In this document: positions 3,664 to 14,137 of the stretch, one piece after another
Numbering within the stretch: the first letter of the stretch is position 1
Layout: each line of letters opens with the position of its first letter
Assembly: GCA_902565895.1 (NCBI GenBank)
Contig: CACFGV010000001.1
Coordinates: forward strand, 62,001 to 126,000
Origin: K189A clade bacterium
Lineage (GTDB): Bacteria; Pseudomonadota; Gammaproteobacteria; Pseudomonadales; Azotimanducaceae
Direction: 5' to 3'
DNA: 64,000 bases
The notes under the pieces: model-generated
Told to the model about the DNA's origin: nothing
The model's input: the letters and a program-made list of their open reading frames with translations, nothing else
The model's database searches: none
Program-made: the position numbers and the translations under genes

Positions 3664-5307
3664 CTAATCTTCAGTCTGCTGATCTTTCGGCGAGTTAAGC
3701 CAGGGTAAAAATAAGCGACCCTCATCTAACGCCTTTTTCTTCGCTGGCACGTCAGGGATTAAACCCATTAACCTGTCCGGGCGATTAGGTTCAACTTGCC
3801 AGGATTGCGGAAATGGCGCGGCTTTAGACCCATTTTTATCCCGTAAGTTAATGCCCTGCGCCAGTCGCGGGGTGTATGGAATAGCGTTCTCCCCCCTAGG
3901 ATTCGCCGCTTGGGCATACAGGGCTGTTCGCAGTGCTTGCCGTACAAAATAATATTCCGGGTCGTTAATCCGATTGACCTTTTCCTCTGGGTCTAAAGCC
4001 AGATCGTAAAGTTCTTCAAGATCCCAGATGCCGTGATACTGAATGTACTTAATATCGCCTCGAGTAATTGCCAGGGTTGTGGGCGTCATCGGGAAGCTCC
4101 ACTCCCAATAATACTGATACAAAAAGTCTGGTTCCCCCCAGGATCCGCGGTCCTGTTCACCAGTAATGAGTGGCCAAGCGCTCTTACCCTCGAACTGCTT
4201 TGGCTTCTGTATACCAGCTATGTCTAAAAACGTGGGCGCTAAATCTAAATTGCGAATACGCGTTTTGTTTGTGCTACCGCCTTTGGCGTCATTCGGCGCA
4301 TAAACGATCATTGGTACTTTGACCGAAGCTTCATAAGCATTGCGCTTATCGATCAGACCATGATCCCCCGTTAAGAATCCGTTATCACTGTAAAAGACGA
4401 TGACCGTGTCATCAGTCAGATTTAGCGCTTCAAGCACAGCTCGCAGGCGCCCCATACTGTCATCCACCGACGACAATGCCCCATAATAATCGCGCAGGTA
4501 ATCCGTCATCTTGCGGTCACTGGCATAAAAAAAGTCAATGCCATGCCAGCTGTTACGTTGGTTTTTGACCCACATTGGCTTGCCTTCAATGTAGTCGTCC
4601 GTGACCGCTACCGTCTCTGGCAGTTCAAACTGCGTATCTCGATACTGGCCCCTGTGGCGCGGCGCTGGAACGGCGTCCGAGTGAACAGCTTTATGACTCA
4701 AATATAAGAAAAACGGCTTTTTCGGATCCCGTAAGTTCTTCAGCCAGTCAATGGCATAGTCGGTAAGCTCGTCCGTTATATAACCTCGCTGCTCTGTGTG
4801 CACACCATCAACGTTGATGACGTTATAGCTCCCGTCACTTCTTTTAATCGGGTAATAGTGGCCCTGACCAGCAAAGCTCACCCATCGATCGAATCCTTCA
4901 CGCGGCGCATCGTTACCCTCCCCCATATGCCACTTACCGAAGAAGCCTGTCTCGTAACCCGCCTCCTGCAGGTAGCGTGGAAAAAACACAAGGCCTTCTT
5001 CGGATGTATTGTTGTTATCGACAATCTTATGATTCTGCGTTGTGAGTCCAGTTAGGATCGTTGCCCTGCTGGGAGAACAAAGGGAAGTGGTGACTACAGC
5101 ATTGGGAAAATAGACACCTTCAGCCGCGAGTTGATCGATATTAGGCGTTTGTACCTGGGGCGTTAAAAAGCCAAGGCCGTCGAATCGCAGGTCATCTAAG
5201 ATGACAAATACGATATTTTTAGCGTCCGTTTCATCGTCATTCGCTAGCACTCCGCCAGCGTAAGTTGTAAGCATCAAAGCCAAAACGGCAACAAGATTTC
5301 TAATCAT
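3664..5307 (-). CDS. Periplasmic sulfatase (arylsulfatase family, S1)
   Basis: 547 aa from the chosen ATG (MIRNLVAVLALML), which is preceded by GGGGA at about 6 nt; an upstream in-frame ATG would add 12 residues and spoil the signal peptide. After cleavage near residue 22 comes the alkaline-phosphatase-like fold: metal-binding DD in VILDDLRFD, then the sulfatase signature CSPSR with Cys77, the residue converted to formylglycine by a formylglycine-generating enzyme. GKWHMG and YSDNGFLTGDHG are further family motifs. It hydrolyses sulfate esters, probably of a polysaccharide or small organic sulfate; the substrate cannot be told. No formylglycine-generating enzyme, transporter or glycoside hydrolase is adjacent. 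Typical of marine heterotrophs. The SDR gene lies 100 nt upstream on the same strand. Confidence 0.9.
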   Translation of the reverse strand: MIRNLVAVLALMLTTYAGGVLANDDETDAKNIVFVILDDLRFDGLGFLTPQVQTPNIDQLAAEGVYFPNAVVTTSLCSPSRATILTGLTTQNHKIVDNNNTSEEGLVFFPRYLQEAGYETGFFGKWHMGEGNDAPREGFDRWVSFAGQGHYYPIKRSDGSYNVINVDGVHTEQRGYITDELTDYAIDWLKNLRDPKKPFFLYLSHKAVHSDAVPAPRHRGQYRDTQFELPETVAVTDDYIEGKPMWVKNQRNSWHGIDFFYASDRKMTDYLRDYYGALSSVDDSMGRLRAVLEALNLTDDTVIVFYSDNGFLTGDHGLIDKRNAYEASVKVPMIVYAPNDAKGGSTNKTRIRNLDLAPTFLDIAGIQKPKQFEGKSAWPLITGEQDRGSWGEPDFLYQYYWEWSFPMTPTTLAITRGDIKYIQYHGIWDLEELYDLALDPEEKVNRINDPEYYFVRQALRTALYAQAANPRGENAIPYTPRLAQGINLRDKNGSKAAPFPQSWQVEPNRPDRLMGLIPDVPAKKKALDEGRLFLPWLNSPKDQQTED

Positions 5308-5407
5308 ACGAGTTCCCCGCATTTTCCATAGATGAACTACCAAGCGGCAGTGACGTTAGCAACAACGGCAGCCCAGGGACATACACCCAATCCTTAGCTG
5401 CAATGCC

Positions 5408-6202
5408 CTAAGTGACAGACAGCCCGCCGTCCACTGGTAAAACGGCACCGGTAATATATTGCGCCAGATCAGAGGCTAAAAATAATGCGGCATTGGCAAC
5501 ATCCCACGCAGAACCCATTTTCTTCCCAAGTGGCACTTGCGCGTCGCGTTCGTTGACAATTTCCTTTCGGGTCTTGCGACCCACTTGTCCCTCTACAGCC
5601 ATGGGTGTCTCCATAAGACCGGGCAAAATGACGTTGGCTCGAATACCGTAGCGCGCATAGTTGGCGGCAACTTGTTGGGTAAACGCGATTACGCCCGCTT
5701 TTGTTGTTTTGTAGCCAACCAATGGATAAGGCTTTAGGGCCGCTAGGCTTGAGATATTGATGACCACTCCCCGACCGGCTGCACGCATGACAGGAAGTAC
5801 GTGCTTACAAGTGAGCACCATGCCGCGTAAGTTGACGTCCACCAAGAAAGAAAAGTCTTCTGCCTCTATTTGCTCGATACGCGCATCGCGATGGCCTGCA
5901 CCCACGGCAACGCCGACATTGTTGTGCAAAATATCAATGCCACCAAAAGCTGTGCAGGTGGTGGTCACTGCCTGTCTAACTTCGCCCTCGTTGCGGACAT
6001 CCAGCGCTAAGGCAATCGCTTCACCACCCGCAGCAATGATTTGTTGTGCTGTTTCTTCAGCGGATTCTAATTTGCGGTCAGCTACGGCAACCTTCGCGCC
6101 TGCTTTAGCGTAAGTAAGCGCGACGGCACGGCCATTACCTACGGTCGCGCCCGGCGTCTGCCCTCCGCCAACGACAAGCGCGGTGTGTTGGTTCAGTTGC
6201 AT
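5408..6202 (-). CDS. Short-chain dehydrogenase/reductase (SDR)
   Basis: 264 aa, the usual length of a classical SDR. The N-terminal Rossmann dinucleotide loop is a long variant, VGGGQTPGATVGNGRA (residues 11-26). NNVG (94-97), Ser151/152 and the catalytic pair Tyr164/Lys168 (YKTTK) are present, and the C-terminus ends in the common PVDGGLS. The family oxidises or reduces alcohols and ketones with NAD(P)(H); the substrate is not predictable here. It sits upstream of and in line with the sulfatase gene, so the two might be co-expressed, but the 100-nt gap makes this uncertain. Confidence 0.88.
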   Translation of the reverse strand: MQLNQHTALVVGGGQTPGATVGNGRAVALTYAKAGAKVAVADRKLESAEETAQQIIAAGGEAIALALDVRNEGEVRQAVTTTCTAFGGIDILHNNVGVAVGAGHRDARIEQIEAEDFSFLVDVNLRGMVLTCKHVLPVMRAAGRGVVINISSLAALKPYPLVGYKTTKAGVIAFTQQVAANYARYGIRANVILPGLMETPMAVEGQVGRKTRKEIVNERDAQVPLGKKMGSAWDVANAALFLASDLAQYITGAVLPVDGGLSVT

Positions 6203-6348: not shown

Positions 6349-6741
6349 TCAATGATGTTCGCAATCGCAGGCCCGGCAAGCGCGGAAGTTAAACCAATGA
6401 GCTAGCGCAACTACCGAGGCACCAAGCACTGTTAGCACCGTTTCGCCTATTTCACCAAGGTGCTGGCCGCCTAGGATTGCGGCTACTACCAATACAAAGA
6501 CGCCTGCAAATCCACAGATGAGAATACGTCGGCTTTTATGCAACCGACAGCCTAAACAAAGAGCGATCACACTCGTTGGCACTACAAGGGCCACTAACGC
6601 TAAATGGAAGCGTTCATCCGCAAGCGCGAAGGTTGCAAACACAGGTACTACACTCACCAATACCGGAACCGCCAAACAGTGCAGCAAACACAGCGTAGAA
6701 AAACCAATGGAGAAACGATCTAGAACTGCGATACGGCTCAT
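6349..6741 (-). CDS. MerC-domain inner-membrane protein
   Basis: 130 aa from ATG at 6741. This start is chosen because its ATGA overlaps the stop codon of the upstream Zur-like gene by 4 nt; a further 14 residues upstream would be Arg-rich and unlike the family. Four hydrophobic helices are visible. The first carries a Cys-His pair (STLCLLHCLAVPVL) as in MerC mercury transporters, and the tail is Cys/His-rich (CRACDCEHH). MerC-domain proteins outside mer operons are poorly characterised. Here it is the last gene of a zinc-type operon, so transport or sensing of a soft divalent metal, perhaps zinc, is a reasonable inference. No merA, merT or merR is present. Confidence 0.8.
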   Translation of the reverse strand: MSRIAVLDRFSIGFSTLCLLHCLAVPVLVSVVPVFATFALADERFHLALVALVVPTSVIALCLGCRLHKSRRILICGFAGVFVLVVAAILGGQHLGEIGETVLTVLGASVVALAHWFNFRACRACDCEHH

Positions 6742-7205
6742 TGCACGCCTCCTTGCTGCACTACGCAGTCGGCACATAAACACTCAAGTTCGAGCTGATT
6801 GTTCGCGAGGTGAAATCCAACCTTCTCCACTGCTTGAGAAAGCCCCTGAACGAACGACTTCGTTATGCCAATCTCTTTCACACTGCCACAGGATTGGCAA
6901 ATCAAAAACTGTGGAATTTCGTTAGCACCGTCACAAGTGACATGCGCGCATGCAACGTACTTGTTTGCAGTGTTTAGACGATGAACCAATCCCAAGGACT
7001 CGAGAAATTCTAATATTCGATAGACTGAAGTAGGCAGCAGCGACGTACCCAGTTTGTCGCGGCAATAGTCGGCCAGGTCGTAGGCCGAGAGCGCCTTTTG
7101 GGATTTGACGAGGCCAGCCAACACCTGGCGACGCTTGGCTGTCAGTTTGCGGCCACGGCTTTCACAGTGCAGCGCCGCTTGCTCGAGTATGGTTTCGGAC
7201 TTCAT
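6738..7205 (-). CDS. zur: Fur-family regulator, Zur-like
   Basis: 155 aa from ATG at 7205, which overlaps the permease stop codon (TGATG); a TTG one codon upstream is less likely. An N-terminal winged helix (TSVYRILEFLESLGLVHRL) is followed by a dimerisation domain with the two CxxC pairs that bind structural zinc: Cys103/Cys106 (CQSCG) and Cys144/Cys147. Additional Cys and His residues (CAHVTC, FHLANNQLELEC) fit the regulatory zinc site of Zur. The family represses zinc uptake genes when zinc is sufficient. Location inside an ABC/MerC operon that has a Zur-type palindrome in its promoter supports Zur over Fur and implies autoregulation. Encoding zur last-but-one in the target operon is not the usual arrangement. 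Confidence 0.85.
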   Translation of the reverse strand: MKSETILEQAALHCESRGRKLTAKRRQVLAGLVKSQKALSAYDLADYCRDKLGTSLLPTSVYRILEFLESLGLVHRLNTANKYVACAHVTCDGANEIPQFLICQSCGSVKEIGITKSFVQGLSQAVEKVGFHLANNQLELECLCADCVVQQGGVQ

Positions 7206-8770
7206 CAATTGATCTCCACGCCTGAACTGTAGGAGTGCGCCGCTGCGTAGGCGCGCCAGGCAGGCACTAGGCTGAGTATTAGTGTTGTAAGGTAAATCAG
7301 CGCTAAAGCTATAAAACTTGAGGAGTAGAGAACCTGCAATGACAGCATGATGCCCAATTCGCTGGCGAGCAGATTGTTCACAACGAGTATCGCCCCAATA
7401 AGCCCCGCAAGCGCGAGTACTATCCCCAGCGTGACCACCAAAAGCGACTCAATAACCAACAACGCCACAATAAACAGTGACGGTGCACCAATGCTGCGAA
7501 GAATCTCAATCTCTCGCTTACGCTCTCTCATAGAGGCCAGCATCATCGCGTTGAGTCCAAAAAGAGCCGAAATAAATACCAATACAGAAATACCGCGCAG
7601 CACATTCTCGACGCCGCCAACCAAACTCCAAAGTTGCGCCAGAGTGAATCCGGGTAAGATCGCCAGCAACGCCTCATCTGTGTACTCGTTGATCCGACGC
7701 TGAACCTGCAAGGTAACTCCAGGCGAGTCTAGCCCCACCAAAATAGCTGTTACGGTGCCCAAAGGCGGATGATCGTGGCCATGGTGGTCGCTGTGTTCTT
7801 CGTGCTCGTCATGGTGACCATGTTCGTCTTCATGTTCGTTGCGCTCGTCATGGTGACCATGTTCGTCTTCGTGCTCATGTTCTTCATGGTGCGTATACTC
7901 TTCGTGCTCGTCATGATCAGCATGTTCGCCTTTGTGCTCTTGCTCTTCGTGCTCGTCATGATGAGCATGTTCGTCTTCATGTTCCTTGTGCTCGCCATGA
8001 TGAGCATGTTCGTCATGGTGCTTAGTTTCATCGTGTTGCCCATGTTCTACATGTTCTTCATCTTCTTCATGGGCTTTGACGTACCCCGGCGATCCATCAG
8101 TACTGGACTCTGTCTCGCCTTCATCAGCATGAATGGCCTCAATGGCTTCTAAACTGACAAACAACGCGTTGTCTACCGGCGTGCCGGTGGGCGCAAGCAA
8201 TCCGGTGATAGAGAAGGACACTTGGTCATGATGGGTAAAACTGGTGTCTGCCATACCATGACTGAGTATCAGTTCATCACCCAGCGCATAGCCCAATTCC
8301 GCAGCTACACGGGAGCCAACCACAACGTCTGACGTCTCGTCGAACCGTTGGCCGACTTGAAACGTCAGGGGTTGGCTTTGTCCGTACATGTATCGATCAA
8401 AGAACTCTGCAGTTGTTCCCACGACCCGAAAGTTTTTGTGCGAATCGCCAAGAGAAATAGGCACGACCCACTCTACATTAGGCTGCTCCGCTATTGCCTC
8501 AACCGATTCCCAGGCTACGTTCGCCGTCGGTGTACCAATGCGAAAAATCGATAGCAGCAACAGGTTGATTTCACCTGTCCTGGCACCCACGATTAGATCG
8601 ACGTTCGACACGGTACTGGCAAAACTAGATCGAGCTTCATGCCGCACGTGCTCGACGCTGAGCAGCACGAAGACGCTGATGGCAACGGCTGCGATGGCAA
8701 GCATAACCCCGCCGATGCGGTATCTCAGGCTCTGATAAGCAACACTGAATAATGCGCCCAGGGTACCCAT
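7205..8770 (-). CDS. FtsX/MacB-type ABC permease with large His-rich periplasmic insert
   Basis: 521 aa. Topology is typical of FtsX/LolC/MacB permeases: TM1 at ~20-40, a large periplasmic MacB-type domain, then three TM helices near ~390-410, 430-460 and 480-505, with the cytoplasmic coupling motif MRERKREIEILRSIGAP. Residues ~230-335, within the periplasmic part, are a low-complexity segment with about 36 histidines among Glu and Asp (units such as HEDEHGHHDE). The start ATG overlaps the ATPase stop (TGATG) and the stop overlaps the zur start (TGATG), so translation is coupled. It is most like the permease of the Zur-regulated PA4063-PA4066 zinc cluster of Pseudomonas aeruginosa. These transporters usually couple ATP hydrolysis to mechanical work in the periplasm rather than ion import, so direct zinc transport should not be assumed. 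Confidence 0.88.
   Translation of the reverse strand: MGTLGALFSVAYQSLRYRIGGVMLAIAAVAISVFVLLSVEHVRHEARSSFASTVSNVDLIVGARTGEINLLLLSIFRIGTPTANVAWESVEAIAEQPNVEWVVPISLGDSHKNFRVVGTTAEFFDRYMYGQSQPLTFQVGQRFDETSDVVVGSRVAAELGYALGDELILSHGMADTSFTHHDQVSFSITGLLAPTGTPVDNALFVSLEAIEAIHADEGETESSTDGSPGYVKAHEEDEEHVEHGQHDETKHHDEHAHHGEHKEHEDEHAHHDEHEEQEHKGEHADHDEHEEYTHHEEHEHEDEHGHHDERNEHEDEHGHHDEHEEHSDHHGHDHPPLGTVTAILVGLDSPGVTLQVQRRINEYTDEALLAILPGFTLAQLWSLVGGVENVLRGISVLVFISALFGLNAMMLASMRERKREIEILRSIGAPSLFIVALLVIESLLVVTLGIVLALAGLIGAILVVNNLLASELGIMLSLQVLYSSSFIALALIYLTTLILSLVPAWRAYAAAHSYSSGVEIN
7770..8085 (-). repeat. In-frame His/Glu/Asp-rich repeat region inside the permease gene
   Basis: Degenerate tandem repeat coding for HHDEHEE/EDEHGHH-type units. 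One 27-nt stretch recurs almost exactly at 7805 and 7844, a 39-nt (13-residue) period; other units vary in length but keep the reading frame. Likely length-variable by slippage. Its composition opens spurious reading frames on both strands. Confidence 0.85.
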
Positions 8771-9468
8771 CAGTGCGTACCTCCAGACTGATTCAGATCA
8801 TCAAGAGCAACGCGATCTTCGAACATCTCGCCAATGGACGGGTCATGACTAACAAAAACCATGGCACAGTTGGTGTCATCGAGCACTTCGTTTAGCAGTC
8901 GCAAAAATGATTCTTTGTTGGCGTGGTCTAAGGCCGATGTAGGTTCATCTACCAGCAGCAAGGAGGGTGAGTTGAACAACGCCCGTACGATGGCAACCCG
9001 CTGCTGCTGACCAATACTCAATTGCTCTGCTTTTCGCCCGGCTAGGCGCGGCTCAAGGTTAACTCGGTCGATAAGTTCAAGTGCGCGCGCCTTATTGGCT
9101 CTTGATGCTCGACCAGCGAATTGCCCAGCCAGCAAAATATTGTCTAGCACCGACAAAAAAGGAATCAGATTGAATTGCTGGAATACTACGCCGATATGTT
9201 GAGCTCGAAACGCATCTCGCTTGCGGCCGCTAAGAGAAGAAATCTGCGTATCTAGCACACTAACCGACCCTGAGGAGGGTGTGCGCAAACCGGCAAGGAT
9301 ACCCAACAGCGTCGACTTTCCGCTGCCCGAGTTGCCCTGCAGGAACACCCTTTGTTTAGCTTCAACACGCCATGACGGGATGGTCAAAACCGGCTCCAAA
9401 CCGGGGCCGAAACGAAAAACCAGTTCCTTGATGTCTATCGCAGCTGTTATATTTTCTTGCGGGTTCAA
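8770..9468 (-). CDS. ABC transporter ATP-binding protein (LolD/MacB type)
   Basis: 232 aa from a TTG start at 9468 (MNPQENITAA), the length usual for LolD-like ATPases. Longer frames exist up to 9555 but would cross the Zur-type operator and overlap the divergent DUF3299 gene. Walker A is GNSGSGKST (45-53), followed by a Q-loop in VVFQQFNLIPFLSVLDN, signature LSIGQQQRV, Walker B LLLVDEPTSALD and the switch His in FVSHDPS. It energises the adjacent permease; their stop and start overlap as TGATG. First gene of the operon ATPase-permease-zur-merC, reading away from the operator at 9494-9512. Zur repression under zinc sufficiency is inferred. Confidence 0.9.
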   Translation of the reverse strand: MNPQENITAAIDIKELVFRFGPGLEPVLTIPSWRVEAKQRVFLQGNSGSGKSTLLGILAGLRTPSSGSVSVLDTQISSLSGRKRDAFRAQHIGVVFQQFNLIPFLSVLDNILLAGQFAGRASRANKARALELIDRVNLEPRLAGRKAEQLSIGQQQRVAIVRALFNSPSLLLVDEPTSALDHANKESFLRLLNEVLDDTNCAMVFVSHDPSIGEMFEDRVALDDLNQSGGTH

Positions 9469-9493
9469 AGCACGACCTGTTCGTATTTTGACG

Positions 9494-9512
9494 AATGATA
9501 CAATGTAACATT
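9494..9512. promoter_or_regulatory. Zur-type operator in the divergent ABC operon/DUF3299 promoter
   Basis: A 19-bp inverted repeat, AATGATACAATGTAACATT, symmetric as AATG-N-TAC-NNN-GTA-N-CATT. It resembles the gammaproteobacterial Zur box (AATGTTATAnTATAACATT). It lies 26 nt before the TTG of the ATPase gene and 16 nt before the ATG of the DUF3299 gene. A possible minus-strand promoter, TTGTGA with 16 nt to TACATT, overlaps it, so binding would block transcription. The match is seen directly; identity of the bound protein is inferred from the zur gene in the operon. Confidence 0.75.
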
Positions 9513-9528
9513 TTTTTGGACGCTCACA

Positions 9529-10017
9529 ATGCACAGGCTGTATTTTCGGAGGCACAGGACACCCAGGCTACTGACGCTCGCTAAGACGCTACTTATCGGT
9601 TGCCTCATGTTGTCGTCCGCTATGGCCTTTGGCGATGCCAAGACGCTGTCATGGCAAGATCTGTTGCCTGAGCTTGATGACACTTTGGACTTAAGCGACG
9701 GGATCCGCTGGGGCGAACGCGTGCGCTTAGATTTGAATGACAAAGACGTCCGAATTCCCGGCTTCATCGTGCCACTAGAATATAAAGAGAGCGAAATCGT
9801 GACCCGATTTCTTCTAGTACCGTACTTTGGGGCTTGTATTCACGAACCTCCACCACCGCCGAATCAAACGATTTATGCGGTTTACGAACCGGGGTACGAA
9901 CTGGAAGAAATTTGGCAACCTGTTTGGATCGAGGGCACTATTTCCGCCAGCCGCGTTGAAGAAGACCTGGCCACCGCATCTTATTCCGTCAGCGCGGTCG
10001 CCATCGAACCTTACTAA
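9529..10017 (+). CDS. DUF3299 secreted protein of zinc-responsive ABC cluster
   Basis: 162 aa. A basic N-terminus and hydrophobic stretch at ~16-33 ending AMAFGDA suggest a Sec signal peptide, so the mature protein is periplasmic. The DUF3299 hallmark is clear: YFGACIHEPPPPPNQ (residues 99-113) with Cys103 and His105 as likely metal or redox ligands. The equivalent gene in Pseudomonas aeruginosa (PA4066) belongs to a Zur-regulated four-gene cluster with an ABC ATPase and permease, which matches the divergent neighbours here. The operator at 9494-9512 sits just upstream. Biochemical function is not established for the family; a role in zinc acquisition or handling in the periplasm is inferred. 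Confidence 0.85.
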   Translation: MHRLYFRRHRTPRLLTLAKTLLIGCLMLSSAMAFGDAKTLSWQDLLPELDDTLDLSDGIRWGERVRLDLNDKDVRIPGFIVPLEYKESEIVTRFLLVPYFGACIHEPPPPPNQTIYAVYEPGYELEEIWQPVWIEGTISASRVEEDLATASYSVSAVAIEPY

Positions 10018-10180
10018 AGCCGCAACCTGGCCCCCTCGCCATCAGCGGCGACTCGCCCGTACATTGCAGCTACGCTTAAGCTGGGCAACACTTCAGTTTT
10101 TGCGTCCAAAAGACACCCGTACTACTGGGTTATGAGGTATAAACCCTTTAACCGGATGCTTATTTTTTGAGAATCTTGCC

Positions 10181-11533
10181 ATGCAATTGCTTACCAACCA
10201 CTCGACACGTAAATCCAACATCAGACACGTTACGTCTACTTTCTGCCTTGTAGCGAGCTTATTTACGGCGTTTCAGGCGCAGGCCGATGAGCTACTGGTC
10301 CGGGCGCAAGAAATCCATGATCGGGTCATCACCTTAGATACCCACGTAGATATCTCTGTCGACAACTTTACTGAAGAAGTTAATTATCTCACCTCACCAC
10401 GCACCCAAGTAGATCTTCCACGAATGGAAGCTGGTGGGTTGGACGCTGCTTTCTTCATTGTTTATGTAGGGCAGGGACCATTGACTGAGGAAGGCTACTC
10501 AACGGCTTACGACAGCGCCATAGCTAAATTCGATGCCATCCATTGGATGACCAAGGAGCTCGCACCGGATCGAATCGCTCTAGCGCTTACGCCTAAAGAC
10601 GTAAGGGACATTGCTAGGAGCGGCCGTAAGGTCGCATTAATCGGTGTAGAAAATGCTTATCCCATTGGCTTGGATATCGCGAACATTGCTCGTTTCGCAG
10701 AGCGTGGGGCGCGCTATATGTCTCTAGCCCACAACGGACACAGCCAATTTTCCGACTCAAATACTGGAGAAATCCGCGAAGGCGGCATGCGTTACGGTGG
10801 CCTGTCTGAGCTTGGACGCGAAGCCATAGCCGAGATGAATCGCCTAGGCATCATGATTGATTTATCTCACCCATCCAAAGCAGCAACACTACAGACCATA
10901 GCCCTAAGCCGCGCTCCGGTAATCGCATCGCACTCTTCCGCACGAGGATTGGAGGACAATCCCCGCAACATGGATGACGAACAACTTCTAGCCTTAAAAG
11001 CGAACGGTGGCGTTATTCAGACCGTGGCCTTTCGTGGCTACCTAAACGGCAAAAAACATGCCGCTTGGCGTAAAGAATATGACGCGCTGATGCGTGAAGT
11101 TGGCAAAGAAATGGGTGTTACAGTAGTCACAGATCGCCGCCAGGTGTTCATGATGCCGCCGGCCGCACGCGCCGAGTACTTAGCCAGCATTCAACCTGTT
11201 ATTGACCGTATCGCAAATACGCCAGAGGCCCTTTCCGCACCACCGGTCGATGTTGCGGACTTCGTTGACCACATTGACTACCTCGTCGCAAAGATCGGTA
11301 TCGATCACGTGGGCATATCTTCCGACTTTGATGGCGGTGGTGGTGTGCAGGGGTGGGATGACGCTGATGAAACCTTCAATGTGACACTTGAACTGGTTAA
11401 GCGCGGCTACACCGAGGCCGAGATCGACAAACTCTGGAGCGGGAACTTATTGCGCGTAATGGGCCAAGTCCAGGCAATTGCGGCCCAAGTGCAACAACAG
11501 TCCATCGCAGAAGTTGCCCAAAGTAACCAATAA
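10181..11533 (+). CDS. Membrane (renal) dipeptidase family M19, secreted
   Basis: 450 aa with an N-terminal signal peptide cleaved near FQAQA-DELL (~35). The M19 metal-site motifs are present: DTHVD (His55, Asp57), a Glu in GVENAYPIG, SLAHNGHSQFSDSN, DLSHPS, ASHSSARGL and a C-terminal GISSDFDGGGGV. The family comprises dinuclear zinc enzymes that hydrolyse dipeptides, often D-containing at the C-terminal position. It is transcribed in the same direction as the DUF3299 gene, 163 nt downstream; whether it belongs to the zinc response is unknown, but a periplasmic zinc enzyme in this setting is suggestive. No convincing ribosome binding site lies before the ATG. Confidence 0.9.
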   Translation: MQLLTNHSTRKSNIRHVTSTFCLVASLFTAFQAQADELLVRAQEIHDRVITLDTHVDISVDNFTEEVNYLTSPRTQVDLPRMEAGGLDAAFFIVYVGQGPLTEEGYSTAYDSAIAKFDAIHWMTKELAPDRIALALTPKDVRDIARSGRKVALIGVENAYPIGLDIANIARFAERGARYMSLAHNGHSQFSDSNTGEIREGGMRYGGLSELGREAIAEMNRLGIMIDLSHPSKAATLQTIALSRAPVIASHSSARGLEDNPRNMDDEQLLALKANGGVIQTVAFRGYLNGKKHAAWRKEYDALMREVGKEMGVTVVTDRRQVFMMPPAARAEYLASIQPVIDRIANTPEALSAPPVDVADFVDHIDYLVAKIGIDHVGISSDFDGGGGVQGWDDADETFNVTLELVKRGYTEAEIDKLWSGNLLRVMGQVQAIAAQVQQQSIAEVAQSNQ

Positions 11534-11976
11534 GTTTTAAGCAGCCAGTCGACTCAGCATGCACAAGTTTTTGCTCACCCATAGCAATCGCTAGCCCGCG
11601 CGATAAATAGTAATGTCGTGCCACCGATCTGACGACGCACCGGTACCACGCCGATAAGTTTGACTCATTTAGCTTCTAACCCGTAACTACAATACCGCTA
11701 TAAGATCGCGCAACCGCGCGTTCGTTCCTTTTCGAAAAATGTTATAAATTCACAAAAGTCGCAGAAGCTAGGTCCTATAGAGGCGCCAGTAGGACTTAGA
11801 AATTTAGTTAGCTCGCTGATCACTCGATGATTATGTAGAACGGCATGCCACAACGAGGTTTTTTTTAAGCATTGCTGCCGGCTTGATACATGGATTGCAT
11901 CGTGCCATGCCCATCCGTTGATATTCGAGTTTTACGTGCTCACATTAAGCCTGACCACCCAATACACAATAACAAC
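11534..11976. other. Intergenic region, dipeptidase to COG0523 GTPase
   Basis: 443 nt without a supported gene if the GTPase starts at 11977. It holds an imperfect Zur-like sequence at 11736-11758 and an extended in-frame ATG for the GTPase at 11890. I found no tRNA, strong terminator or repeat. Confidence 0.5.
11736..11758. promoter_or_regulatory. Imperfect Zur-like operator upstream of the GTPase gene
   Basis: AAAATGTTATAAATTCACA matches the left half of the Zur consensus (AAATGTTATA) almost perfectly, with a poor right half (TTCACA). It lies ~220 nt before the chosen ATG (or ~130 nt before the ATG at 11890). Plausible because COG0523 GTPases are frequent Zur targets, but weak on its own. 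Confidence 0.35.
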
Positions 11977-13047
11977 ATGACAGTACCGATACCCATTACT
12001 GTGCTTACAGGTTTTCTCGGCAGCGGCAAGACCACTGTCTTACGCCACCTCGGAAGCTTAGGCGTTTTGCAACGCACGCTTATACTGGTGAACGAATTTG
12101 GTGAGGTAGGACTCGATCACGAACTGCTGACGCCTATTGATGATGACACTCTAGTGGCGGTAGAAAGCGGCTGTATTTGCTGCACTATTCGTGCAGATTT
12201 GGTGCAAACCTTAAGCGAAGCGCCCTGGCGATATGCGCGGGATGGTCAACGGTGGTTTGATCGGGTAATTATAGAAACAACTGGGATCGCTGACCCTGCA
12301 CCGATATTGCAAACCATCTTGGGCGACGAAAAAGTATCTAACCAGTACGCACTAGCCGCAGTGTTGACCGCGGTTGACGCAGTAAATGGCGCGCAGACGT
12401 TAAAGCACCATTTCGAAGCAGTGAAACAAGTGGCCGTTGCAGATCGTATTCTATTGACCAAGGCTGATTTACTCGATGGCTCGAATGAAGCTTTAATGCG
12501 ATCAATCAGAAAGCTTGCGCCATCTGCACCCATTAACCCAATCGTCGATGGCGAGGCTAGCGCCGACTGGTTCTTTAGCAACAACATCTACTCAGCCGAA
12601 GGTAAAACGTCTGATGTCGAAGCTTGGTTGATGGGAGAATCGCAACAAGCTTCCGCTGATGTAGAAGGTTACAACCATAACCATAGCCATAACCATAACC
12701 ATGACCATGCCCATGACCATGACCTAAATCGGCACGGCACCATTGCGGCGAGTTGTCTTACTTTTGAACAACCCGTAGACGCTGCGCTGTTTGAGACCTG
12801 TTTGGCGATGTTGATGGAATTCAGGGGCGAGGATCTTTTACGCGTAAAAGGCATCATCAACGTCGCTGGAATGGATCGACCGATGGTCATTCACGGCGTG
12901 CAACATGTCTTTCATCCGCCTGAAATACTGGATGGGTGGCCCAGCGCTGACCGGCGATCCAAAATCGTCATAATCGCACGGGAGCTTGAGATTGATGCGA
13001 TTCGCAGCTGTTTCGCGAGCGTCGGCCTAGAAGCGCTTGACAACTGA
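11977..13047 (+). CDS. COG0523 (CobW/ZigA-type) metallochaperone GTPase with His-rich loop
   Basis: 356 aa from ATG at 11977 (MTVPIPITVLTGFLG), chosen because family members begin a few residues before the P-loop; an ATG at 11890 would add 29 residues unlike the family. G1 is GFLGSGKTT (12-20), the metal-binding CxCC is Cys66-Cys69 (GCICCT), ETTGIADP follows, and TKAD provides base recognition. A loop at ~233-252 alternates His with Asn/Asp/Ser, and a CobW C-terminal domain closes the protein. Such GTPases (ZigA, ZagA, YeiR) deliver zinc to client proteins under zinc starvation. Position next to a Zur-type operon supports a zinc rather than cobalt role. The client is unknown. Confidence 0.88.
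   Translation: MTVPIPITVLTGFLGSGKTTVLRHLGSLGVLQRTLILVNEFGEVGLDHELLTPIDDDTLVAVESGCICCTIRADLVQTLSEAPWRYARDGQRWFDRVIIETTGIADPAPILQTILGDEKVSNQYALAAVLTAVDAVNGAQTLKHHFEAVKQVAVADRILLTKADLLDGSNEALMRSIRKLAPSAPINPIVDGEASADWFFSNNIYSAEGKTSDVEAWLMGESQQASADVEGYNHNHSHNHNHDHAHDHDLNRHGTIAASCLTFEQPVDAALFETCLAMLMEFRGEDLLRVKGIINVAGMDRPMVIHGVQHVFHPPEILDGWPSADRRSKIVIIARELEIDAIRSCFASVGLEALDN
12673..12720 (+). repeat. Hexanucleotide repeat coding the His-rich loop
   Basis: Eight consecutive in-frame hexamers of the form NNCCAT (mostly AACCAT, then GACCAT/GCCCAT), giving alternating Asn/Ser/Asp/Ala-His in the GTPase. Prone to copy-number change in multiples of two codons. Confidence 0.9.
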
Positions 13048-13273: not shown

Positions 13274-14137
13274 TTAAGGTTGCAACCATGCCTTTGGTTC
13301 TTCAGTACAACGAACCGTGACCCGACGCGCATGCCTAGCGTGGGGATAATAGTCCCAAATAGCATGGTGCTGAGTGCATCGATTGTCCCACATGACCAAC
13401 GTGTTTGGTGACCAGCGCACTCGACATTGCCAGCGCGGATTGCTTTCAATGTGTGCACAAAGCATGTTCAGCATGGCGTCGCTTTCTGCTTTAGCCAGCC
13501 CGATAACTCTGCTGGTGAAACTACCATTTACGAACAGTATCGGTTGTCCTGTTTCGGGGTGCCTAGTCACTATGGGATGCCGGGCCCTCGGATACGTCTG
13601 ACTTGGTTTTAGACGCACATTGTAAGCAGCTAAATCTTTGCGACCATCGTGTTCAGCAGTGAGCCCAAGTAGCCATTCTTTGACTGGTTTAGACAGCGCA
13701 TCAAAAGCTTCACACATATCCGCAAACAACGTATCGCCGCCGCCATCTGGCGGTGGTTGTTCGATATATAAAAGAGAAGCCAGAGGCGGTAAGGGTTCAC
13801 AAGACACATCGGAATGCCACGCCTCACCGTTGCTGTATTTGGAATCCGCGTGGGTATCAATGATGAACAGTTCAGGGTCACCTGGAGCGCCAAGATGGCT
13901 ATACCGAGGATGGACGTGCAACGGCCCAAAGTGTCGGGCGAACGCTTTGTGTTGCTCTACGGATAACGTTTGGTTCCGAAAGACCAAAACCTTATGCTGC
14001 CAAAAAGCCTCTTTAATCGCGTCAAGCTGCTCCGGTGTCGCGCTCGCTAATTGCACGCCCTCAACCTCTGCGCCAAACACAGGCGTCAACGGCGTTACCG
14101 TAACTTCGTTTGCAAAATTCACTTTGCACATAACCAT
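13274..14137 (-). CDS. TauD/TfdA-family Fe(II)/2-oxoglutarate dioxygenase
   Basis: 287 aa, typical for the family. The facial triad is visible as His108/Asp110 (AWHSDVS) and a distal His at ~257/258 (DNRCTQHHAIWDYY), with the 2-oxoglutarate-binding Arg in HARRVTVR. The family hydroxylates substrates such as taurine, alkyl sulfates, 2,4-D or carnitine precursors with O2 and 2-oxoglutarate. The sequence alone does not point to one. No sulfonate transporter is adjacent. It is convergent with the GTPase gene and lies 214 nt downstream of the GMC oxidoreductase gene on the same strand. ATG at 14131 is an equally possible start. Confidence 0.9.
   Translation of the reverse strand: MVMCKVNFANEVTVTPLTPVFGAEVEGVQLASATPEQLDAIKEAFWQHKVLVFRNQTLSVEQHKAFARHFGPLHVHPRYSHLGAPGDPELFIIDTHADSKYSNGEAWHSDVSCEPLPPLASLLYIEQPPPDGGGDTLFADMCEAFDALSKPVKEWLLGLTAEHDGRKDLAAYNVRLKPSQTYPRARHPIVTRHPETGQPILFVNGSFTSRVIGLAKAESDAMLNMLCAHIESNPRWQCRVRWSPNTLVMWDNRCTQHHAIWDYYPHARHARRVTVRCTEEPKAWLQP

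Follow-up and report, generated by a model that had tools for sequence, protein, structure and literature searches.

How does a periplasmic ATP-binding cassette (ABC) machine of the Zrg type manage when ZrgA, the soluble protein with which it usually works, is not found? This question is raised by a gene cluster in a 64 000-nucleotide stretch of DNA from a K189A clade bacterium (the window, i.e. bases 62001–126000 of contig 1 in a 2.02-Mb draft assembly with 68.8% completeness). The core of this cluster is of a type already known to be Zur-regulated in Pseudomonas (PA4063–PA4066) and in Vibrio (ZrgABCDE), as described in PMC11481552, PMC9817125, PMC8561739 and PMC9820375. What is new is an exchange between ZrgA and a His-rich insert in the permease, which makes the window cluster a variant of the known system. 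We consider it reasonably probable that this cluster represents the Zrg/PA4063–PA4066 system in a form that lacks ZrgA, with the insert acting as a built-in metal tether in its place. The preliminary description of the window was silent on both features, the insert and the missing ZrgA; its seven genes are otherwise found at the positions and in the families given there, each with a Pfam profile match. In the open-licence literature, we found no report of a ZrgA/insert exchange or of the link between Zur and MerC described below.

The core features are the following.

7205–8770, minus strand: MacB/LolE-like permease (ZrgB/PA4065 type), 521 residues; MacB_PCD 46.5 and FtsX 52.8 bits
7757–8128, minus strand: His/Asp/Glu-rich insert of the permease, residues 215–338, predicted to be disordered
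8770–9468, minus strand: ABC ATPase (ZrgC/PA4064 type); ABC_tran 110.9 bits; TTG at 9468 as probable start
9495–9511, no strand: Zur-type palindrome in the gap that separates the ATPase gene from the divergent DUF3299 gene
9529–10017, plus strand: DUF3299 protein (ZrgE/PA4066 type); PF11736 136 bits; match to 4hsp at 1.2e-27

Distribution of ZrgA and the permease insert

Across loci, ZrgA and the insert are nearly mutually exclusive, and this holds in several lineages. ZrgA (PF10986) has no match in the window draft genome nor in 16 other genomes of the permease clade that carry the cluster; in the eighteenth (G557) it occurs only on the contig of a second, ZrgA-type copy. An insert was scored when the loop contained at least six His, and ZrgA was searched genome-wide where a locus had no local copy. 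From 258 annotated stretches, 30 without a permease (score below 200) were not counted, and 18 of the remaining 228 were dropped, i.e. nine repeat loci, L319 (contig edge), L072 and L229 (fragments) and six in which the permease is cut off (L069, L079, L082, L118, L124 and L169). The resulting 210 loci comprise 165 with ZrgA and no insert, 34 with an insert and no ZrgA, nine with neither and two with both. Among the six cut-off permeases, four (L069, L082, L118 and L124) belong to genomes without a ZrgA match and have 9–14 His in what is visible of the loop; L079 is ZrgA-negative with only 4 His, and L169 has a local ZrgA and a single His.

The idea of mutual exclusion arose from the first 58 loci (35 with ZrgA and no insert, 21 with an insert and no ZrgA, two with neither). 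In the 152 loci fetched after it had formed, which were drawn from the order, the class and a set of named genomes, the corresponding numbers are 130, 13 and 7, with two loci having both; the class sample contributes no insert case at all (30 with ZrgA, two with neither). Fisher's test on these later loci gives p = 3.4e-12, a value that ignores shared ancestry and on which we do not rely. Loops of ZrgA-positive loci contain 0–3 His, save for two exceptions with 8 and 11. Among named genomes, inserts without a ZrgA match in the genome-wide search were found in Pseudoalteromonas rubra and three other Pseudoalteromonas, in Lacimicrobium, Aliidiomarina and Bowmanella, and in metagenome-assembled genomes of a Verrucomicrobiales member and a gammaproteobacterium. 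Where loci of the named set seemed to have neither ZrgA nor insert, a genome-wide check located ZrgA outside of the fetched stretch in 10 of 12; the other two (L282 and L333) have no ZrgA in the genome and 4 His each. Three genomes with two permeases (G557, G937 and G947) show both states side by side: the fetched locus around the insert-bearing copy is devoid of ZrgA, and the contig of the copy without an insert carries ZrgA. When shared ancestry is taken into account by independent pairs on a FastTree tree, the 14 pairs on supported branches divide, on average, into 7.4 with opposite states, 0 with the same and 6.6 without a difference (median p 0.016).

The periplasmic domain of the permease

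In the window permease, the insert comprises 124 residues, among them 36 His and 49 Asp or Glu, at one fixed site of the periplasmic domain, flanked by helix 207–221 and strand 342–347 of the AlphaFold model (mean predicted local distance difference test score, pLDDT, 79.8); it is predicted to be disordered, with most of residues 226–332 having a pLDDT below 50. At this same site, ZrgA-type permeases have a short element of about 27 residues (24–29 in 135 of 167). A Trp or Tyr near the start of this loop is present in 126 of 165 loci with ZrgA and no insert versus 2 of 34 insert loci, a Leu-x-Pro-like end (LxPx-like) in 146 of 165 versus 6 of 34, and residue 354, just past the element, is Phe in 159 of 167 ZrgA-positive loci versus 6 of 34 insert loci. 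The eight ZrgA-positive loci without Phe354 include both loci that have ZrgA together with an insert, as well as four with ZrgA outside of the fetched stretch. Leu is found at residue 354 in the permeases of both of these double-positive loci (L276 and L280). His 171, 181 and 214 of the permease are invariant in 210 of 210 loci.

Could the insert instead buffer or sense metal in the periplasm and so tune the transporter, with a zinc-poor habitat behind the disappearance of ZrgA as well as the acquisition of the insert, and neither taking over from the other? The inserts are of low complexity and vary widely in length (41–175 residues among the first loci), as such a role would allow, and V. 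cholerae ZrgA is functional without its own His-rich loop (PMC9820375). A mere buffer, however, does not readily explain why separate lineages have the insert at one and the same site, where it displaces a conserved element, nor why the three two-permease genomes obey the rule copy by copy, and we regard this explanation as unlikely.

Proposed function and its weak points

In the explanation that we favour, i.e. that of a built-in tether, the ATPase and the MacB/LolE-fold permease would together make up a machine that does its work through the periplasmic domain. In its common form, this machine would be partnered by ZrgA, a soluble His-rich metal-binding protein; in the form present in the window, the His/Asp/Glu-rich segment, predicted to be disordered, takes the place of the short conserved element of the periplasmic domain. 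The insert would capture zinc (or cobalt) in the periplasm and present it to the permease, thereby doing the job of ZrgA as a tether, and the element that it replaces, together with residue 354, would be the place where ZrgA normally docks. Metal binding by the insert, its functional replacement of ZrgA and the assignment of the docking site are thus the three suppositions on which this model stands. Besides the distribution described above, it speaks in favour of the model that the V. cholerae system cannot do without ZrgA (PMC9820375). The appeal of the model is that nature has repeatedly traded a soluble partner for an insert at a single position in the permease, which points to the interaction site and leaves two short targets that can be addressed separately (the 27-residue element and residue 354).

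Several observations weigh against this explanation. Given that the His-rich loop of V. cholerae ZrgA is dispensable, as mentioned above (PMC9820375), it is not obvious that a His-rich stretch by itself would supply what ZrgA contributes. Failure to find ZrgA in draft genomes, including a window genome of limited completeness, does not amount to proven absence. The pairs test is modest, and an order tree of 108 loci provides only five supported pairs (median p 0.25), which is too few. Nine ZrgA-negative loci remain below the insert cut-off, with 3 His (L075, L187 and L224), 4 His (L282 and L333), 0 (L126) or 1 (L195) and, at contig edges that also lack the ATPase gene, 0 (L234) or 2 (L256); Phe354 is retained in 7 of these 9 loci that have neither ZrgA nor insert, which also speaks against a strict rule. 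L276 (Aquisalinus) and L280 (Alteromonas) combine an insert permease with a ZrgA encoded elsewhere, and no second permease was found in either. Finally, L061, L272 and L289 were scored as ZrgA-negative because the ZrgA of their genomes sits on the contig of the second permease; counting per genome moves these three to the exceptions (165/31/9/5).

The same nine loci would also suit the idea that a separate, unrecognized protein stands in for ZrgA and that the insert is incidental, all the more as diverged proteins can escape PF10986. In 11 of 12 clade loci with DNA past the permease, however, the core of MerC, Zur, permease, ATPase and DUF3299 contains no extra recurrent gene (a statement about the locus only), and we think this alternative very unlikely.

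Which way the metal would move is a matter of dispute for the known systems themselves, with regard to both the role of ZrgA/PA4063 and that of a MacB-like machine in zinc starvation. In Vibrio, the system is read as a zinc importer with ZrgA as its binding protein, and ZrgA aids growth in zinc-poor medium (PMC9820375, PMC9817125); in P. aeruginosa, an exporter of pyochelin-cobalt has been proposed with mutant data (PMC11481552). If the transporter were an exporter, the insert would capture excess metal or a metal–ligand complex for extrusion, which is compatible with a tether. Besides the P. aeruginosa data, the MacB-type architecture favours export, and the heme exporter HrtBA (Z 19.8) is among the fold matches of the permease model, beside 5xu1_M (Z 24.5), LolE (Z up to 22.2) and MacB (Z up to 18.3). 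With the Vibrio growth data standing against it, export seems to us rather unlikely, if the least so among the alternatives considered here.

Organization of the core genes

The kinship to PA4063–PA4066 that had been put forward for this locus is well founded, as 4hsp, which the window DUF3299 protein matches, is the structure of PA4066 (PMC8561739). As judged from its genes, the window has a MacB-type permease with a separate ATPase, a DUF3299 protein and a putative Zur box before the transporter genes, all of which characterize Zrg systems; it is because ZrgA was not found in the draft genome that we class the cluster as a variant. Searches for DUF3299 found it in 186 of the 390 genomes from the order, in 67 of the 200 from the family and in 46 of the 369 from the class, and by analogy the window protein may be periplasmic. 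Stop and start codons overlap as previously described (TGATG at 8770 between ATPase and permease, TGATG at 7205 between permease and Zur, ATGA at 6741 between Zur and MerC). For the ATPase, a start at TTG 9468 is favoured over GTG 9555, from which the reading frame would cross the palindrome; the TTG start leaves a gap of 60 bases to the DUF3299 gene, with the palindrome inside.

Zur and its putative target sites

Downstream of the permease, the operon continues with two small genes.

6738–7205, minus strand: Fur-family regulator, Zur-like; ATG at 7205; PF01475 FUR 48.4 bits
6349–6741, minus strand: MerC-family inner-membrane protein, 130 residues; ATG at 6741; PF03203 91.4 bits

The regulator had been called Zur-like, and its best solved relatives agree with this, being E. 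coli Zur (4mtd, 1.8e-19) and the Fur-family regulator 7dh7 (2e-19). It keeps the structural CxxC pairs (CQSC and CADC); it does not reach the NCBIfam Zur equivalog cut-off (95.5 versus 167 bits), and the HxH of the sensor region, conserved in 53 aligned Zurs, is GAN in the window Zur, with both His lost. This HxH presumably corresponds to the H96 region of E. coli Zur, a sensor site, and its replacement may alter the zinc response of the window protein. HxH is intact in a sister locus (L070); in L078, one His of the pair is gone.

The Zur-type palindrome reported previously (ATGATACAATGTAACAT) proved to be a conserved candidate box. It is the sole site in the draft genome that fits RTGWTAYANNRTAWCAY with at most one mismatch, with a reversed-pattern control finding two sites there. 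Scored with a weight matrix that was derived from 13 such boxes in relatives and left the window box out, it reaches 25.8, compared with a best of 18.7 and a mean of 11.6 in 30 Markov-simulated 64-kb windows, and similar boxes occupy the same gap between the ATPase and DUF3299 genes in relatives. Zinc control of the window cluster is likely but not certain, because its Zur has lost the sensor-region HxH. In the relative L125, the DNA separating the permease gene from the Zur gene contains a further full match to the Zur-type pattern (G563:C1:153786–153802), which may give Zur a promoter of its own in that locus.

MerC and neighbouring genes

That the whole region, including the regulator, MerC, an M19 dipeptidase and a COG0523 GTPase, forms one module finds support for MerC and not for the dipeptidase. 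In 29 of 45 distinct Zur-bearing loci (35 of 51 with repeats), the gene immediately after Zur on the same strand encodes MerC; among loci without Zur, MerC was seen in 14 of 174 (14 of 177 with repeats). These are raw counts without tree correction, from loci that partly share ancestry, and were made without an overlap filter, as filtered layouts hide overlapping genes (e.g. MerC in L131). Since it follows Zur so often, MerC probably belongs to the system. Where DNA extends beyond the permease in the clade, Zur and MerC are both there in 11 of 12 loci (not in L062); the other six of the 18 clade loci stop within or soon after the permease gene. The window protein, far above the PF03203 cut-off of 27.6 bits, contains C18-x2-H21-C22, E43, H46, H68 and H115. 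Across 16 aligned Zur-linked or related MerC proteins, C18, H21, C22, E43, H46, E100 and H115 are invariant and H68 nearly so, and such residues would suit a metal conduit. The AlphaFold model of the window MerC (mean pLDDT 80.7) finds only scattered helical matches, the best with Z 7.9, which are uninformative. A more general, if quite improbable, scheme may also be considered: Zrg systems would be mechanotransmission-type periplasmic metal handlers in which either ZrgA or the tether loads a site comprising, among others, the invariant H171, H181 and H214 of the permease and the element around residues 215–341 and 354, and the Zur-linked MerC would admit the metal through the inner membrane.

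Beyond the DUF3299 gene, the following features were considered.

10181–11533, plus strand: M19 dipeptidase; PF01244 Peptidase_M19 301 bits
11739–11755, no strand: degenerate Zur-box-like sequence 5' of the COG0523 gene; score 6.9, not significant in the window
11890–13047, plus strand: COG0523 (CobW-family) GTPase with His-rich linker; PF02492 cobW 144 and PF07683 CobW_C 70.4 bits

The dipeptidase was rejected as a module member and is probably a neighbour outside of the system, being present in 4 of 18 clade loci, 17 of which show at least 1.7 kb past DUF3299 (L076 only 620 bases). For the COG0523 gene, ATG 11977 appears a likelier start than 11890. Its product has both the nucleotide-binding and the C-terminal domain of CobW, and reaches none of the NCBIfam COG0523/CobW subgroup cut-offs. 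That this gene is a Zur target, as had been assumed, was rejected: its best upstream score of 6.9 ranks eighth in the window and is within chance. Among scanned relatives, a strong box lies directly 5' of the COG0523 gene in L076 (25.8) and L083 (18.7), and not in L078, L079, L082 and L122; in L078 and L082, a Zur-type box precedes a DUF1826 gene that itself stands before the COG0523 gene. In these close relatives of the window, the DUF1826 gene is at L078:4143–4703 (domain scanned) and L082:4961–5521; the open reading frame list and the Pfam scan of the window cluster showed no such gene.

Among 20 genomes searched for ZnuA (PF01297), 4 gave a match (2 of 16 within the genus, one as fragments) and not in the window genome; four genus members (G179, G200, G475 and G487) showed neither ZnuA nor DUF3299. 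The flanks of the cluster (3664–6202 and 13274–14137) show no evident link to zinc; a Pfam scan identified a sulfatase, a short-chain dehydrogenase and a TauD-family dioxygenase there. ZrgA-type clusters of other families further encode a phosphoribosyl-AMP cyclohydrolase and a hexapeptide-repeat protein (L140:9426–9848 and L130:9323–9883), and paralogs of this sort are known from zinc-starvation islands.

Comparison with known systems

The window MerC shares the PF03203 membrane protein family with MerC of mercury resistance operons and differs in its link to Zur and in its conserved C-x2-H-C and His/Glu residues; no mer genes were found among the scanned locus neighbours, a genome-wide mer search not having been made. 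With Zur-regulated COG0523 islands, the window has a nearby COG0523 gene in common, whereas the box at COG0523 or DUF1826 seen in some relatives is degenerate at the window COG0523 gene, and no DUF1826 gene was seen in the cluster. MacB, LolCDE and other mechanotransmission ABC systems have a permease of similar fold with a large periplasmic domain; the window permease is only 14–19% identical to them in fold alignments and is set apart by its zinc-linked gene set and its His-rich insert. Vibrio ZrgABCDE, which is Zur-regulated (PMC9817125), shares the permease (zrgB), the ATPase (zrgC) and the DUF3299 gene (zrgE), but has ZrgA, not detected in the window genome, where the permease has the insert instead. 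With PA4063–PA4066 of P. aeruginosa, also Zur-regulated, the window shares the two-gene MacB-type ATPase/permease and DUF3299. It differs from this cluster in the undetected PA4063 (ZrgA) and the insert of the permease, and also in its layout, with the DUF3299 gene diverging from the ABC genes and Zur and MerC residing within the operon.

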